From the NCBI RefSeq assembly GCF_016526145.1, contig NZ_JADDUE010000001.1:372001-436000 (forward strand): a stretch of 64,000 bases of DNA, given 5' to 3'. Numbering within the stretch: the stretch's first letter is position 1; the number at the start of each line of letters is the position of its first letter. Positions 29,395 through 37,500 of this stretch are shown here, piece after piece. The notes beneath the pieces were generated by a model that worked only from the letters and a program-made list of their open reading frames with translations, ran no database searches and was not told the DNA's origin. This DNA comes from Saccharopolyspora galaxeae. GTDB lineage: Bacteria; Actinomycetota; Actinomycetes; Mycobacteriales; Pseudonocardiaceae. Both the position numbers and the translations under genes were made by a program.

Positions 29395-30459
29395 TCAGGC
29401 GCGGCGGGCGCGCCCGTACTGGCGGGGCCAGATGTTGTCCGCGTGCAGCCGGTCCGCGGCGTGCAACGGCCAGTGCGGGTCGCGCAGCAGTTCCCGCGCC
29501 AGCAGCACCGCGTCCGCCGAGCCGGAGGAGACGACCTCCTCGGCCTGCTCCGGCGAGGTGATCAGGCCGACCGCGCCGGTCGGCACTCCGGCCTCCGCGC
29601 GGACCTGGCGGGCGAACCGGACCTGGTAACCCGCACCGACGGGAATCCGGGCGTCCGGCACCGCGCCGCCGGTCGAGGCGTCGACGAGGTCCACACCCCG
29701 CTCGGCCAGCAGTTTCGCCAGCCGCACCGAATCCTCGCCGGTCCAGCCGCCGTCCACCCAGTCGGTCGCGGAGATCCGCACCAGCAGCGGCCGCTCCTGC
29801 GGCCACACCGCGCGCACCGCGTCCACGATCTCCAGCGGCGCCCGCACCCGGCCGGCGAAGTCGCCGCCGTAGCGGTCGGTGCGGTCGTTGATCAGCGGTG
29901 AGTAGAACTGATGCGCCAGGTAGCCGTGCGCGAAGTGCAGCTCCACCGCGTCGAACCCGGCGGCTTCGGCGCGGCGGGCGGAGGCGGCGAACTGCTCGGG
30001 CAGCGCCGCGACCTCCGCCTCGGTCAACGCCCGCGGAGCGGCCAGCTCGCCGAAGGCGGCGTCGGTGGAGCTGATCGTGCGCCAGCCGCCCGCTGATTCG
30101 GGAACGCTCGCGCCGCCGTCCCACGGAGCCTCCGTGGAAGCTTTGCGTCCCGCGTGCGCGAGCTGGACGGCGGCCGTCGAGCCCTGCTGGTGCAGGAAGT
30201 CGGTGATCCGCCGCCACGCGGTGGCCTGCTCGTCGTTCCACAACCCGGCGTCGGCGGGGCTGATCCGGCCTTCCGGGGCGACCGCGCTGGCCTCGGCCAT
30301 GACCAGGCCCGCACCGCCGGTGGCGAACTGGCCGAGGTGGACGAAGTGCCAATCGCCGGGCACGCCGTCGATCGCGGAGTACTGGCACATGGGCGAGACC
30401 CACACCCGGTTGGGGATGGCGACATCGCGCAGCTTCAGCGGCTCGAACAGGTGACTCAT
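29395..30459 (-). CDS. Old-yellow-enzyme family NADH:flavin oxidoreductase (YqjM-like)
   Basis: 354 residues. N-terminal LFEPLKLRDVAIPNRVWVSPMCQYSA contains the YqjM-type active-site cysteine. QLAHAGRKAS, ELHFAHGYLAHQFYSPLINDRTDRYGG and VRISATDW are FMN and substrate sites with the paired histidines. The C-terminal LLARELLRDPHWP closes the barrel. Enzymes of this class reduce activated C=C bonds with NAD(P)H. The ATG at 30459 begins at the conserved N-terminus. It points away from the proline-rich peptide gene. Confidence 0.94.
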   Translation of the reverse strand: MSHLFEPLKLRDVAIPNRVWVSPMCQYSAIDGVPGDWHFVHLGQFATGGAGLVMAEASAVAPEGRISPADAGLWNDEQATAWRRITDFLHQQGSTAAVQLAHAGRKASTEAPWDGGASVPESAGGWRTISSTDAAFGELAAPRALTEAEVAALPEQFAASARRAEAAGFDAVELHFAHGYLAHQFYSPLINDRTDRYGGDFAGRVRAPLEIVDAVRAVWPQERPLLVRISATDWVDGGWTGEDSVRLAKLLAERGVDLVDASTGGAVPDARIPVGAGYQVRFARQVRAEAGVPTGAVGLITSPEQAEEVVSSGSADAVLLARELLRDPHWPLHAADRLHADNIWPRQYGRARRA

Positions 30460-30717
30460 ATTTCGCAACAACCCGGCTGCGCAGGGGTTTATTCCTGTTG
30501 TACGGCAGCTCACAGCGGCTGGGAACTTCCTCGTAGAACGGTGTGCGCCCGCTGGGAAATCGGCAGCCCGGCCGGACGCGGGAATTCGTCCAGGAGCTTC
30601 CCAGTGGATTTCCGGATATTTTCCGTCGAATCCGTTCCGAAATGCTCGGTAGGTTGATTCCAGTCGGCGCCGAAACGGCCCGGCCAAATGTGATTCGATT
30701 CGACCAGGAGGTCGCAA

Positions 30718-30810
30718 ATGGGTTTCCCCGTTCCGGTCCCAGGCAAGCCGCGCCCGCCCAAGCCGCCGAAGCCCCCGAAGCCGGAGCCGGGCCGGCCGCC
30801 GCACAAGTGA
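30718..30810 (+). CDS. 30-residue proline-rich cationic peptide (candidate exported peptide precursor)
   Basis: This is a small ORF, ATG GGT TTC CCC ... CAC AAG TGA, with AGGAGG seven bases upstream of the ATG. The product has 30 residues: 14 prolines, five lysines, two arginines and one glutamate. It begins MGFPVPVPGKPRPP and carries a KPPKPPKPEP core. It has no Cys, Ser or Thr and no signal peptide. The next gene, 62 bases downstream on the same strand, is a fused ABC transporter of the peptide/multidrug exporter type, so export by it is a natural inference. Composition resembles proline-rich antimicrobial peptides of animals, which act inside bacteria; that is only an analogy. It could also be a short leader ORF that tunes the transporter. 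Confidence 0.6.
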   Translation: MGFPVPVPGKPRPPKPPKPPKPEPGRPPHK

Positions 30811-30872
30811 GTTGATCCTCGGCGGGCCGGTCGGTTCAGCACCGGCCCGCCGGGGCAGCGGGAAGGACCGAG

Positions 30873-32681
30873 ATGAGCGCTGCGCCGGGAATTCGCGAGG
30901 TTTTCGCCCGCTTCCGGCCGTTCCTGCGCCCGGAGCGCGGTGGCCTGCTGGTCGCTGCGGTGCTGCTGGTGATCTCCGCGCTGGCCGACACCGCGGGCAT
31001 CTGGATGTTCATGCTGATCACCGACGACGCGCTGGCGACCGGCAGGTTGGCGGAGTTCTGGGCGCCGGGCCTGTCCTGGCTGGCGATCGCGGCGGTCGGC
31101 GCAGCGGCCTCCTTCGGCGGCTCCTACTTTTCCGCGCGGGCGGCCGAACGTTTCCTGGTGCGGTTGCGCGCGCACGTCTTCGCGCATTTGCAGCGGCTTT
31201 CCCCGGATTTCTTCGCGCGCAGCAAACTGGGCGATCTGGTCTCGCGGCTCTCCGGGGACGTGGAGGCGGTGGAACGGCTCGTCGCATCCGGCATGGTCGA
31301 GACCGTCACCGCGATGTTCAGCGTGGTCCTCTACGCGGGCGCCGCGCTGTACCTGCGCTGGGACCTGGCGCTGCTTTCGTTCGCGCTCGCGCCGGTTTTC
31401 TGGCTGGTGGCGCGTAGCTTCGCGAACCGGATCAGGTCGGCGTCGCGGGACGAGCGGGCGGGCAATGGCGAGCTGAGCACGGTCGTCGAAGAAGGACTCG
31501 GGCACATCGAGCTGGTGCAGGCCGCGAACCAGCAGCCGCGCAAATCCGCCGAGCTGCACGCCGCCTCGATGCGCTGGTTCCGCGCGAAGATTACCGAGGC
31601 GCGGCTGTCCGCGCTGTACCCGCCGCTGGTCACGATTGTCGAGACGGGGTGCGTGCTGCTGGTGATCGGCGTCGGCGTGTGGGAGATCTCGGCGCAGCGC
31701 ATCAGCATCGGCGGCCTGATGGCGTTCGCCGCCTACATCGGCTACCTGTACCCGCCGCTGCAGGACCTCGGCCGGATCACCATGGCGGTGACCGCCGCGC
31801 GCGCCGGTTCGGAGCGGTTGATCGAGCTCATGGACGCGCAACCGGCGGTGGCCGACGCGCCCAGCGGCGTGTCGTTGCCGCCGCGGCGCCCCGCGGGGCG
31901 GGCGATCGAGTTCGACCGGGTCGGTTTCGGCTACCCGGGCGCGGGCCGGGCTGCGCTTCGCGACTTCCGGCTGCACGTCCGGCCGGGAGAGTTCGTGCTG
32001 GTCACCGGCCCCAGCGGAGCCGGGAAATCGACGCTGGCGAGGCTGCTGCTGCGGTTCTACGACCCGGGCGCGGGCCGGGTGCTGCTGGACGGCGTGGAAT
32101 TGCCCCGGCTCCCGCTGCACGAGGTTCGCGACCAGATCGCCTACGTGCCGCAGGAAGCCGACGTGCTGCACGGAACGGTCGCGGACAACATCGCGTTCGC
32201 CGCGCCAGGGGCGTCTCGGGCCGACGTCGTCGCAGCGGCTCAGGAAGCCGACGCCGACGAGTTCGTCCGGGCCTTGCCGGACGGCTACGACACGGTGCTC
32301 GGCGAGCGCGGAGCGCTGCTTTCCGGCGGCCAGCGCAGACGGATCGCCATCGCCCGCGCCGTGCTGCGCCGTGCTCCAGTGCTGGTGCTGGACGAACCGA
32401 CCAACGGACTGGACCAGGAGTCCAAGCGCAACGTCCTCGCCCCGCTGCGGCGGCTCGCCCGCACCCGCACGACCTTGCTGATCAGCCACGATCCTGATCT
32501 CGCCGAACTGGCCGACCGGATCGTGCGGCTGCGCGGGCAAGGCACGAACGCTGCCGGGAACGCGCCGGTTCAGCAGGAGCCGACGGCATCGGATGCCGGT
32601 CCCGACGAGACCCCCACGGTCCGGCTCCGCCCGCCGTGGCCTGCGGGGCTCACCGATCCGCTGCACGCGCGGCACCGATGA
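30873..32681 (+). CDS. ABC exporter with fused transmembrane and ATPase domains
   Basis: 602 residues. Six membrane helices fill about residues 20-310 (LLVAAVLLVISALADTAGIW, LSWLAIAAVGAAASFGGSYF and others). The ATPase domain at about 345-555 has Walker A GPSGAGKST, the Q-loop region AYVPQEADVLHGT, signature LLSGGQRRRIAIAR, Walker B VLVLDEPTNGLD and ISHDP. No C39 peptidase domain is present, so a leader would not be cut by this protein. The ~45-residue C-terminal tail is Pro/Ala-rich and ends in arginines. ATG at 30873 has GGAAGGA upstream. It follows the proline-rich mini-gene in the same direction and ends at a terminator facing the prolyl-oligopeptidase gene. Confidence 0.93.
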   Translation: MSAAPGIREVFARFRPFLRPERGGLLVAAVLLVISALADTAGIWMFMLITDDALATGRLAEFWAPGLSWLAIAAVGAAASFGGSYFSARAAERFLVRLRAHVFAHLQRLSPDFFARSKLGDLVSRLSGDVEAVERLVASGMVETVTAMFSVVLYAGAALYLRWDLALLSFALAPVFWLVARSFANRIRSASRDERAGNGELSTVVEEGLGHIELVQAANQQPRKSAELHAASMRWFRAKITEARLSALYPPLVTIVETGCVLLVIGVGVWEISAQRISIGGLMAFAAYIGYLYPPLQDLGRITMAVTAARAGSERLIELMDAQPAVADAPSGVSLPPRRPAGRAIEFDRVGFGYPGAGRAALRDFRLHVRPGEFVLVTGPSGAGKSTLARLLLRFYDPGAGRVLLDGVELPRLPLHEVRDQIAYVPQEADVLHGTVADNIAFAAPGASRADVVAAAQEADADEFVRALPDGYDTVLGERGALLSGGQRRRIAIARAVLRRAPVLVLDEPTNGLDQESKRNVLAPLRRLARTRTTLLISHDPDLAELADRIVRLRGQGTNAAGNAPVQQEPTASDAGPDETPTVRLRPPWPAGLTDPLHARHR

Positions 32682-32722: not shown

Positions 32723-34567
32723 TCAAGCCAGCCCGACGGCCCGCTGCGCGAAGTGGATCTCCGCGGAAACCTGGCGCAGCGTCTCGGCCACCACCAGCGA
32801 ACCGTGTCCGGCGTCGTAGCGGTAGAACTCGAACGGCACCTGCCGCGCGGACAGCCGGTCCAGGTAGTTCAGGATCTGCCGGAGCGGACAGCGCGGATCG
32901 TTGTCCCCGGCCAGCACCAGCACCGGCGCGCGGACCTCGTCGACGTAGGTCAGCGGCGAGCAGTCCCGGTACACCGCGGGGACGTCCTCCGGCGAGCCGC
33001 CGAACAACGCGCGGTCGTAGGCGCGCAACGGCTCCATCTCATCGGCGTAGGCCGAGACGTAGTCCGCCACCGGCACCCCGGCCACGCCGCCCGCCCACCG
33101 CTGCGGTTGCGTGCCCAGCGCCAGCAACGTCAGGTAGCCGCCCCACGAAGCTCCGGCGACCACGCTCAACGCTGGCGTGGTGAGCCCTTCCGCGACGGCC
33201 CAGTCGTGCACCCTGGCGACGTCGGCCAGCTCGGTCAGCCCCGGACGTCCCTCGATGGCGTCCCGCCAAGCCGAGCCGTAACCGGTCGAACCCCGGTAGT
33301 TGATCTCCACCACGGCGAAGCCCGCGTCCAGCCACGCCGCCCGGTACGACGAGAACCGGTCCTCGTCGGCCGCGTGCGGCCCACCGTGCAGGTTGAACAC
33401 CGTGGGCAACGGCTCGTCCCCGGAGTTTTCCGGGCGGGATACCAGCGCGTGCACGGTCTCGTTCGGCCCGTACGGCACTTCCACGAACACGTCGCCGACC
33501 GGCTGCGAACCGGGCGCCCGCTCCCCGGGAGGCGTCAGCAGCACGCGGTCCTCGCCGTCCGCGGTCAGCGTGCGCACCAGCCCCGGCGTCGCGGCCGACG
33601 ACCACGAGTACTCCACCGACCGGTCCGGTCGCACCGAGGCGTTGCCGACCGTCCCGGCCGGGGTCGACAGGTCGGTCAGCTCGCCAGAAGCCAGGTCGTA
33701 GCGGTGCATCGTGGTGCGCGCCCGATGGGTGTGCGCGATCAGCAGCGCCGAACCGTCCGGGTACCAGTCCGCGGAGACCTCACCGGGCAGTCCGAGGTCG
33801 AGCTCCTGCTCGGTGTCCGCGAGCACGTCCCAGATCAGCAGCTCTTCGCGGCCGTGCCGCTCGTGCAGCACCAGCAGCCGGGGATCCCCGCTCACCGGCG
33901 CGAAGTCCAGCGCGTCCAGGCCCTTGCCCGGCCCGTCGTACTTCTCGGCGACGGTCGCCGCGTCGGACACCCGCAGCACCCGCAGCGCCGGGTGCCTGCT
34001 GTCGCCGTGCTCCGAGTGCGACAGCACCAGCAGCGACTCGTCCCAGGACAGCGCGGAAAGACCGCCGTCCTGCTCGTGCTCGTAGACGACTTCCGGGCTC
34101 GCGCCGTGCTTCGACACCCAGATCGTGACGCCGTCGTCGGTGGACATCCCGATCCCGGTCACGGTCGGCCCGAGCGCCAGCCCGGCCGGGTAGCCGGCGT
34201 GCGTGCCCGGCACCGCCTCGGCCGGCTTCTCGCCGCCGTAGGTGAAGTCCTCGCTGACCCACTTGCCGAACTCGTCGCCGTCGGTGTCGTCGAACCACCA
34301 CACCCGCGTCCCGTCCGCGGACAAGGTGCCGTGGAAGGTGCCGTTCGGCCGGTCGGTGACCTGCCGGTGTTCGCCGGAGTCCCGGTCCCAGGCGTAGAGC
34401 TCCCAGGTTCCGCTGCTGTTGGAGACGTACAGGCTGCGCGCCGGGGCGTCGCGCGCCCAGTCCGGCAGGGACACGCGCGGCGCGCTGAACCGCGCCCGCC
34501 AGCGCCGCTCCAGCTCGGCGTCGTCGAACAGCTCTTCCGGGATCTTCGCGTCAGGGTAGGTGCTCAC
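32723..34567 (-). CDS. S9-family serine peptidase (prolyl oligopeptidase type)
   Basis: 614 residues. The N-terminal ~350 residues are a beta-propeller (repeated YVSNSSGTWELYAWDRDSG, LSADGTRVWWFDD, RLLVLHERHGREELLIWD). The C-terminal hydrolase domain has FNLHGGPHA, the nucleophile S474 in GASWGGYL, the acid in AGDNDPRCP and the histidine in DAGHGS. S9 peptidases cleave short peptides, often after proline. No signal peptide is visible, so it should be cytoplasmic. It is convergent with the proline-rich peptide/ABC transporter genes. A role in degrading that peptide is possible but unproven. Confidence 0.92.
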   Translation of the reverse strand: MSTYPDAKIPEELFDDAELERRWRARFSAPRVSLPDWARDAPARSLYVSNSSGTWELYAWDRDSGEHRQVTDRPNGTFHGTLSADGTRVWWFDDTDGDEFGKWVSEDFTYGGEKPAEAVPGTHAGYPAGLALGPTVTGIGMSTDDGVTIWVSKHGASPEVVYEHEQDGGLSALSWDESLLVLSHSEHGDSRHPALRVLRVSDAATVAEKYDGPGKGLDALDFAPVSGDPRLLVLHERHGREELLIWDVLADTEQELDLGLPGEVSADWYPDGSALLIAHTHRARTTMHRYDLASGELTDLSTPAGTVGNASVRPDRSVEYSWSSAATPGLVRTLTADGEDRVLLTPPGERAPGSQPVGDVFVEVPYGPNETVHALVSRPENSGDEPLPTVFNLHGGPHAADEDRFSSYRAAWLDAGFAVVEINYRGSTGYGSAWRDAIEGRPGLTELADVARVHDWAVAEGLTTPALSVVAGASWGGYLTLLALGTQPQRWAGGVAGVPVADYVSAYADEMEPLRAYDRALFGGSPEDVPAVYRDCSPLTYVDEVRAPVLVLAGDNDPRCPLRQILNYLDRLSARQVPFEFYRYDAGHGSLVVAETLRQVSAEIHFAQRAVGLA

Positions 34568-37420: not shown

Positions 37421-37426
37421 TACTTG

Positions 37427-37500
37427 TCGGGGTGGCGGGATTTGAACCCACGACCTCTTCGACCCGAACGAAGCGCGCTCCCAACCTGCGCCACACCCCG
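37427..37500 (-). tRNA. tRNA-Pro, anticodon CGG
   Basis: Read on the minus strand: acceptor CGGGGTG pairs with CACCCCG. The anticodon arm is CTTCG-TTCGGGT-CGAAG, giving anticodon CGG, and the T-arm GTGGG-TTCAAAT-CCCGC is canonical. The discriminator is A and CCA is not encoded. It reads CCG proline codons, which are common in this GC-rich genome. Confidence 0.95.

Follow-up and report, generated by a model that had tools for sequence, protein, structure and literature searches.

Low-complexity peptide genes paired with a subfamily of ABCB-type exporters in Saccharopolyspora galaxeae and other Actinomycetota

The window analysed here is a stretch of 64,000 nucleotides of the Saccharopolyspora galaxeae genome (contig NZ_JADDUE010000001.1, positions 372,001 to 436,000), an assembly of 6.4 Mb in 34 contigs. 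It holds a gene for a short proline-rich peptide, a hairpin and a gene for a fused ABC exporter, in that order and on the same strand (Table 1). A preliminary description of this DNA had reported a 30-codon ORF with a perfect ribosome-binding site, whose product has 14 Pro and 7 Lys/Arg among its 30 residues, and a spacing of 62 nt (30811–30872) between the peptide stop codon and the exporter ATG. Reading of the sequence and counting on the translated product bore out all of these points. The further remark that the peptide has no Cys, Ser or Thr is correct for the 30-residue product of the window but does not extend to the family described below, in which a His/Cys type occurs (L055, L056 and L060). 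The hairpin between the two genes and the occurrence of the family outside the genus were both absent from that description.

Table 1. Positions of the features at the locus, numbered from the first nucleotide of the window
Feature	Position	Strand	Basis and remarks
Shine-Dalgarno site AGGAGG	30706..30711	+	6 nt 5′ of the ATG; read directly and found by script
Peptide gene, product MGFPVPVPGKPRPPKPPKPPKPEPGRPPHK (30 aa)	30718..30810	+	Translation; start motif conserved
GC-rich hairpin, about 15 bp, no U-run	roughly 30817..30855	+	Folding; between peptide gene and exporter
Fused half-size ABC exporter (TMD and NBD), 602 aa, without peptidase domain	30873..32681	+	Pfam PF00664 and PF00005
Codon for Glu257, in the stretch taken as TM5	31641..31643	+	Subfamily signature
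ABC signature LSGGQ, residues 483–487	32319..32333	+	Translation and invariant alignment columns

The hairpin of the window had a z score of −6.5 relative to 20 shuffles, and its best 50-nt stretch folds with −39 kcal/mol. An Rfam match at 30815–30917 was below threshold (E = 0.35; 23.7 bits, the gathering score being 60) and was set aside as chance. In the exporter, ABC_membrane and ABC_tran were the only distinct Pfam domains, in agreement with the earlier account of a fused exporter without a peptidase domain; the other four matches to the 602-residue ORF are overlapping ATPase models, two of which barely exceed the cut-off. The fusion of TMD and NBD, together with the invariant GxSGxGKST (Walker A) and LSGGQ columns, places the protein among ABCB-type (type IV) exporters. 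The Pfam scan of the window exporter found no C39 peptidase domain, which sets it apart from PCATs. By sequence, its closest solved structures are of the ABCB1 type, MsbA and TmrA, and ABCB4 is also among its relatives.

Pfam assigns the neighbouring genes in the window to a ferritin-like protein, an FMN reductase, an old-yellow-enzyme protein and an S9 peptidase. No processing, modification or immunity gene was seen among these neighbours or in the flanks of four loci from other taxa, where the neighbours differ. By its surroundings the pair does not look like a lanthipeptide or other modified-peptide locus, as no modifying enzyme adjoins it and none of eight representative peptides matched an NCBIfam precursor model. 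More generally, no Pfam or NCBIfam model fits these eight peptides (two weak Pfam names, E ≥ 0.2). The S9 (prolyl oligopeptidase) gene (32723–34567, minus strand) is convergent to the exporter and is kept at loci L039–L044, one of which belongs to another genus; it was not found in the 1.5–5 kb flanks of L045, L046, L064, L047, L067, L088 or L002. The old-yellow-enzyme gene (29395–30462, minus strand) is divergent from the peptide gene and is kept at L039–L044 and L268–L270. The adjacency of both genes within the window's own clade may be plain synteny. A tRNA-Pro (CGG) gene (37426–37500, minus strand) lies 4.7 kb 3′ of the exporter, probably by coincidence.

All six genomes of the genus, the window's own included, carry an orthologous exporter, and at loci L001 and L039–L043 it is preceded by a short ORF that starts MGFP[IV]PVPGK and has a strong Shine-Dalgarno site. 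We also searched 390 genomes of the family, independently of the exporter, with the DNA pattern for MGFP[IV]P[FV]PG. Nine genomes gave one match each; six of them belong to the genus and three to genus g26. The reversed pattern, run as a control, gave no match in the 390. All nine matches lie directly 5′ of the exporter. Thus, a short Pro/Lys ORF upstream of orthologous transporters, for which the preliminary description had suggested a search and whose absence it had named as a refutation, does exist and always adjoins the exporter. A strong hairpin follows immediately 3′ of the Pro-type ORF at eight of these nine loci; at L270, the remaining one, another Pro-rich ORF comes next and the hairpin only thereafter. 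Covariation within the Pro-type hairpin was weak: across eight loci, both partners had changed in 2 of 11 pairs. In the next genus (L044) the upstream peptide is MGFPIPFPGNGHPRPHFPERPQQPQPAPAPRR, and at L045, where the exporter is 52% identical, it is MAHFPIPAKPHCKPLPKPGPKPGPLPRR. An E-value-based search with the peptide in 60 relatives was uninformative except for one member of the genus, because low-complexity matches swamped the list.

Less closely related members of the exporter subfamily, preceded by ORFs for other low-complexity peptides, were present in 26 of the 150 family genomes examined, in 19 of 396 from the phylum and in 38 of 159 from genus g72, which is probably Streptomyces since the locus from Streptomyces minutiscleroticus (L088) sits in the g72 branch. 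Other named carriers are Nonomuraea terrae, Pseudonocardia kujensis and Nocardioides halotolerans, and one Nonomuraea record without annotation was found in a plasmid collection. A scan of a genome collection with the exporter alignment gave 80 loci, of which only L087, L088, L089 and L137 belong to the subfamily, because generic ABC motifs were used; the remaining 76 exporters (with L003–L006) served as controls.

After curation, 116 of 120 subfamily loci had a low-complexity peptide encoded 5′ of the exporter, a figure for which the N-terminal pattern was drawn from sequences already seen, unrelated ORFs were removed by their first letters and five loci (L058, L059, L063, L089 and L204) were added by hand. 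Among the 120 loci are near-duplicates (L001/L039 and L002/L065), and single genomes may contribute several loci. No peptide ORF was found upstream of L080, L083, L203 and L232. The loci of L080 and L232 are truncated or disrupted; L203 and L083 encode full-length subfamily exporters, and the closest relatives of L203 have the ORF. The unbiased figure comes from a motif-free rule (24–75 codons, ATG or GTG start, a Shine-Dalgarno match of at least 5 nt, and the top three residues making up at least 55%), passed at 76/120 subfamily loci and at 5/76 control exporters (3/33 of the GC-rich controls), although its thresholds were set after the list had been viewed. Its background was 11 of 118 for reversed upstream stretches and 6 of 80 for stretches 600 nt further upstream.

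The peptides at the 116 loci are 28–74 residues long (median 44). Sorted by composition, with thresholds of our own, 21 are of the Pro type, 21 of the His type, 21 of the Lys type, 20 of the Arg type, 16 of the Gly/Trp type and 6 of the Tyr type, and 11 fall outside these types. Their net charge has a median of +9 and is at least +5 in 85 of the 116, but cationic charge is not a rule, as 14 peptides are negative and four have zero charge. In 79 of the 116 the start agrees with M-x-F-x-x-[ILV]-x-P-[AVG]. A second cassette lies in the genome that carries the window (L002, G000:C1:115815-117458), with a Gly/Trp-rich peptide, MSNVKSVFVYINNRRRHGNGWGWGNGWGWGNGWGHGWGWGGHGWGGWGWK, beside a paralogous exporter that is 44% identical. 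With this Gly/Trp-rich peptide, and with Lys/Ala/Pro, poly-Arg, His-rich and Tyr-rich peptides beside related exporters, the Pro-richness stressed in the preliminary description turned out not to be the essence of the system. The likeness to proline-rich antimicrobial peptides of animals is therefore probably one of composition only.

We compared 45 pairs of loci, picked by exporter identity (70–99%), for the way in which the ORF changes. Gap lengths were divisible by three in 111 of 172 cases within the ORF versus 29 of 182 cases 3′ of it, and in the 30 pairs with at least 85% identity frame-keeping gaps made up 56 of 79 in the ORF versus 13 of 101 in the flank. Across the 45 pairs, the first, second and third codon positions had 283, 245 and 379 substitutions, and across the 30 closer ones 143, 130 and 220. 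Both indels and substitutions, with their third-position excess, thus respect the reading frame that the preliminary description had proposed. For 50 of 52 pairs the ratio pN/pS was less than 1 (0.41 when pooled), a result given little weight because these pairs were chosen by peptide identity and because at least one of them (L227_0/L230_0) represents the end of an upstream gene and not a peptide gene. Mean identity was 82% over residues 2–10 and 63% over the tail, with the start better conserved than the tail in 39 of the 45 pairs, and one peptide type also keeps a C-terminal RRPV motif. The repeat length can change fast, as the Gly/Trp repeats of L167 and L170, whose exporters are 96% identical, differ by a block of 60 nt (20 codons).

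GC-rich DNA readily yields Pro- and Arg-rich frames, and the passing of the motif-free rule by 5/76 controls and 11/118 reversed stretches is what one would see if such ORFs were by-products of GC-rich repeats or hairpin signals, with no useful peptide. The frame-keeping indels and the third-position excess argue against this, as do the nine matches to the start motif versus none to its reversal and the rate of 76/120 versus 5/76. We regard a by-product as highly improbable.

The type of the peptide follows the exporter. On the exporter tree, peptide type requires 22 changes, compared with a mean of 75 and a minimum of 68 in 200 shuffles. A model of 13 Lys-rich peptides (A2) gave at least 35 matches in 21 of 159 genomes, and among the matches listed 35 of 35 adjoin the exporter by comparison of coordinates. 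The one A2-positive genome outside the exporter list is G697, in which an apparent frame shift, genuine or due to sequencing, splits the exporter gene (L264) while three intact tandem peptide genes stand 5′ of it. An association this strict with one exporter subfamily bears on a second explanation, in which the peptide stays within the cell, for example as a counter-ion, a nucleic-acid binder or a small regulator of the exporter, whose cargo would be some other compound, for instance a drug or lipid. The basic low-complexity tails would fit nucleic-acid binding, and relatives of the ABCB type (ABCB1, ABCB4 and MsbA) often transport drugs or lipids. Gly/Trp-rich and acidic types, however, would not bind nucleic acids, and neither the strict tie to one subfamily nor the tracking of the exporter tree by peptide type is in keeping with such a role, which we judge quite unlikely.

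The layout of the loci was compared in the same way. At 11 of 116 loci tandem peptide ORFs occur within 620 nt. G629 carries five copies, G697 three and L270, of the Pro type, two. The final peptide ORF is followed at 106 of the 116 loci by a hairpin that scores below −2 in z (median z −4.4); this hairpin has a median of 18 bp, begins a median of 12 nt past the stop codon and has a U-rich end in 8 of the 106. Such a hairpin is present in one of the 13 gaps between tandem copies (L208) and before 3 of 33 GC-rich control exporters. At L078 a good fold was also seen by eye behind the first copy. This gene order is the one that would be expected of structural genes parted from their exporter by a transcription brake, and not of a sensor adjacent to a terminator. 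A brake between structural genes and exporter is expected from bacteriocin operons.

A short ORF, a terminator-like hairpin a median of about 12 nt past its stop codon and then an ABC exporter could also form a leader-peptide attenuator, in which a drug, an amino acid or an effect of the nascent chain is sensed as the short ORF is translated and the outcome decides if transcription ends at the hairpin, the peptide being otherwise without a role. Pro- and Arg-rich nascent chains slow ribosomes, which counts for this possibility. A precedent is the 53-codon ORF bmrB of Bacillus subtilis, which stands before the ABC exporter bmrCD with a terminator, both terminator and antiterminator being reported to lie within the leader ORF (PMC4191407). 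We therefore compared pairing of the ORFs with the hairpin arms against synonymous shuffles by duplex energies only, a test that would miss pseudoknots and other designs. Pairing with the 5′ arm was worse than in the shuffles (mean z +0.41, s.e. 0.09, 105 loci) and pairing with the 3′ arm was no better (mean z −0.02, s.e. 0.11, 103 loci). With no better pairing to the hairpin arms than in the shuffles, the usual antiterminator was not seen, and an attenuator is disfavoured. It also does not account for up to five tandem copies with their own start sites and no hairpin in 12 of 13 gaps, for tail composition that is conserved over the whole length, with a C-terminal motif in one type, or for the scarcity of U-runs past the hairpin. 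Taken together, these findings make an attenuator unlikely. Were it nevertheless the correct explanation, the leader peptides of these loci would be more varied than those of any other single transporter family.

The exporters of the subfamily share residues that are rare in the controls. Position 257 is Glu at 105 and Gln at 11 of the 116 loci, while the control exporters (n = 75) have mostly V, G, A, I or T there. An acidic residue at position 39 is found in 111/116 subfamily exporters versus 20/75 controls, and Pro509 within LDEPT in 116/116 versus 4/75. By analogy with MsbA, we take residues 39 and 257 to lie in helices, the latter in TM5. Acidic groups along the path through the exporter would suit cationic peptides. 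A link between the change from Glu257 to Gln and a loss of peptide charge (means +8.3 versus +0.7) was considered and dropped, since only five independent pairs were available and a tree-aware sign test gave p near 1. The His/Cys-rich peptides of L055, L056 and L060, which resemble metal binders, adjoin Gln257 exporters.

In what we consider the best reading, to which we give a probability of roughly 0.6, one or more structural genes encode an exported low-complexity peptide that is left unmodified and is usually cationic, and a hairpin separates them from the gene of a dedicated homodimeric exporter of the ABCB type. This reading rests on an ORF that is conserved, kept in frame and linked to the exporter, and it agrees with the preliminary description in that the adjoining exporter is probably the peptide's own export pump. 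One or more short unmodified peptides would be made from the structural gene or genes, and the half-transporter, acting as a homodimer, would export them. The hairpin past the last peptide gene may limit transcription or set RNA processing; as a brake, it would cause much more peptide than exporter to be made. The exporter may recognise the peptide by its conserved start of about ten residues, and the fast-changing tail would act outside the cell. A first guess at its role there is antagonism to other microbes, suggested by the scattered distribution of the cassettes, their tandem copies and the variability of the tails.

A broader proposal, to which we give slightly less than even odds, is that these loci form an undescribed class of cassettes in Actinomycetota and perhaps other bacteria. 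Their peptides would be unmodified and would join a conserved recognition segment to a near-homopolymeric, hypervariable tail (for example poly-Arg, Pro/Lys, Lys/Ala/Pro, Gly/Trp or His/Gly) that acts outside the cell, most probably on rivals or on the producer's own surface. Bulk chemistry and not a fold may be the active principle, because tails are swapped between branches while the exporter remains recognisable. If the peptides are exported, the cassettes would be a large reservoir of gene-encoded, unmodified, cationic or aromatic low-complexity peptides with matched exporters. They would also provide natural pairs for the study of how ABCB-type exporters recognise disordered peptides, and would explain exporters annotated as MsbA-like or multidrug.

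Animal proline-rich antimicrobial peptides are likewise short and rich in Pro, Lys and Arg, but only one branch of the present family is Pro-rich and that branch has a conserved MGFP start; at such a length a test of homology by sequence is meaningless. Leaderless and other unmodified bacteriocins share with the cassettes one or more short genes for cationic peptides, sometimes in tandem, that adjoin an exporter. Bacteriocin structural genes commonly have a hairpin behind them; the available passages of a review on nisin do not discuss one. Unlike bacteriocin loci, the cassettes have tails that are nearly homopolymeric, and no C39 peptidase, double-glycine leader or immunity gene was seen in them. 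Compared with bmrB–bmrCD, the hairpin of the cassettes lies past the stop codon, the ORFs can be tandem and antiterminator pairing was not found.

The closest parallels in transport are TAPL/ABCB9 and TmrAB, which like the cassette exporter are of the ABCB type and which move unstructured peptides uncut; TmrA, as noted above, is among the structures nearest to the cassette exporter. TAP-like transporters serve many peptides and are not known to have an adjoining peptide gene, unlike the cassettes. TAPL is reported to be a homodimeric half-transporter that moves peptides of 6–59 residues and favours positive ends, with Y405 and E456 as peptide-anchoring residues of the cavity (PMC9532399). To the extent of that account, half-transporters of this sort are able to move peptides of 6–59 residues with positive ends. 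Searches of the open-access literature turned up no description of such a gene pair. A dedicated exporter beside a small peptide gene is an already known kind of arrangement; the combination of near-homopolymer peptides with this subfamily of ABCB-type exporters is, as far as our searches show, new.
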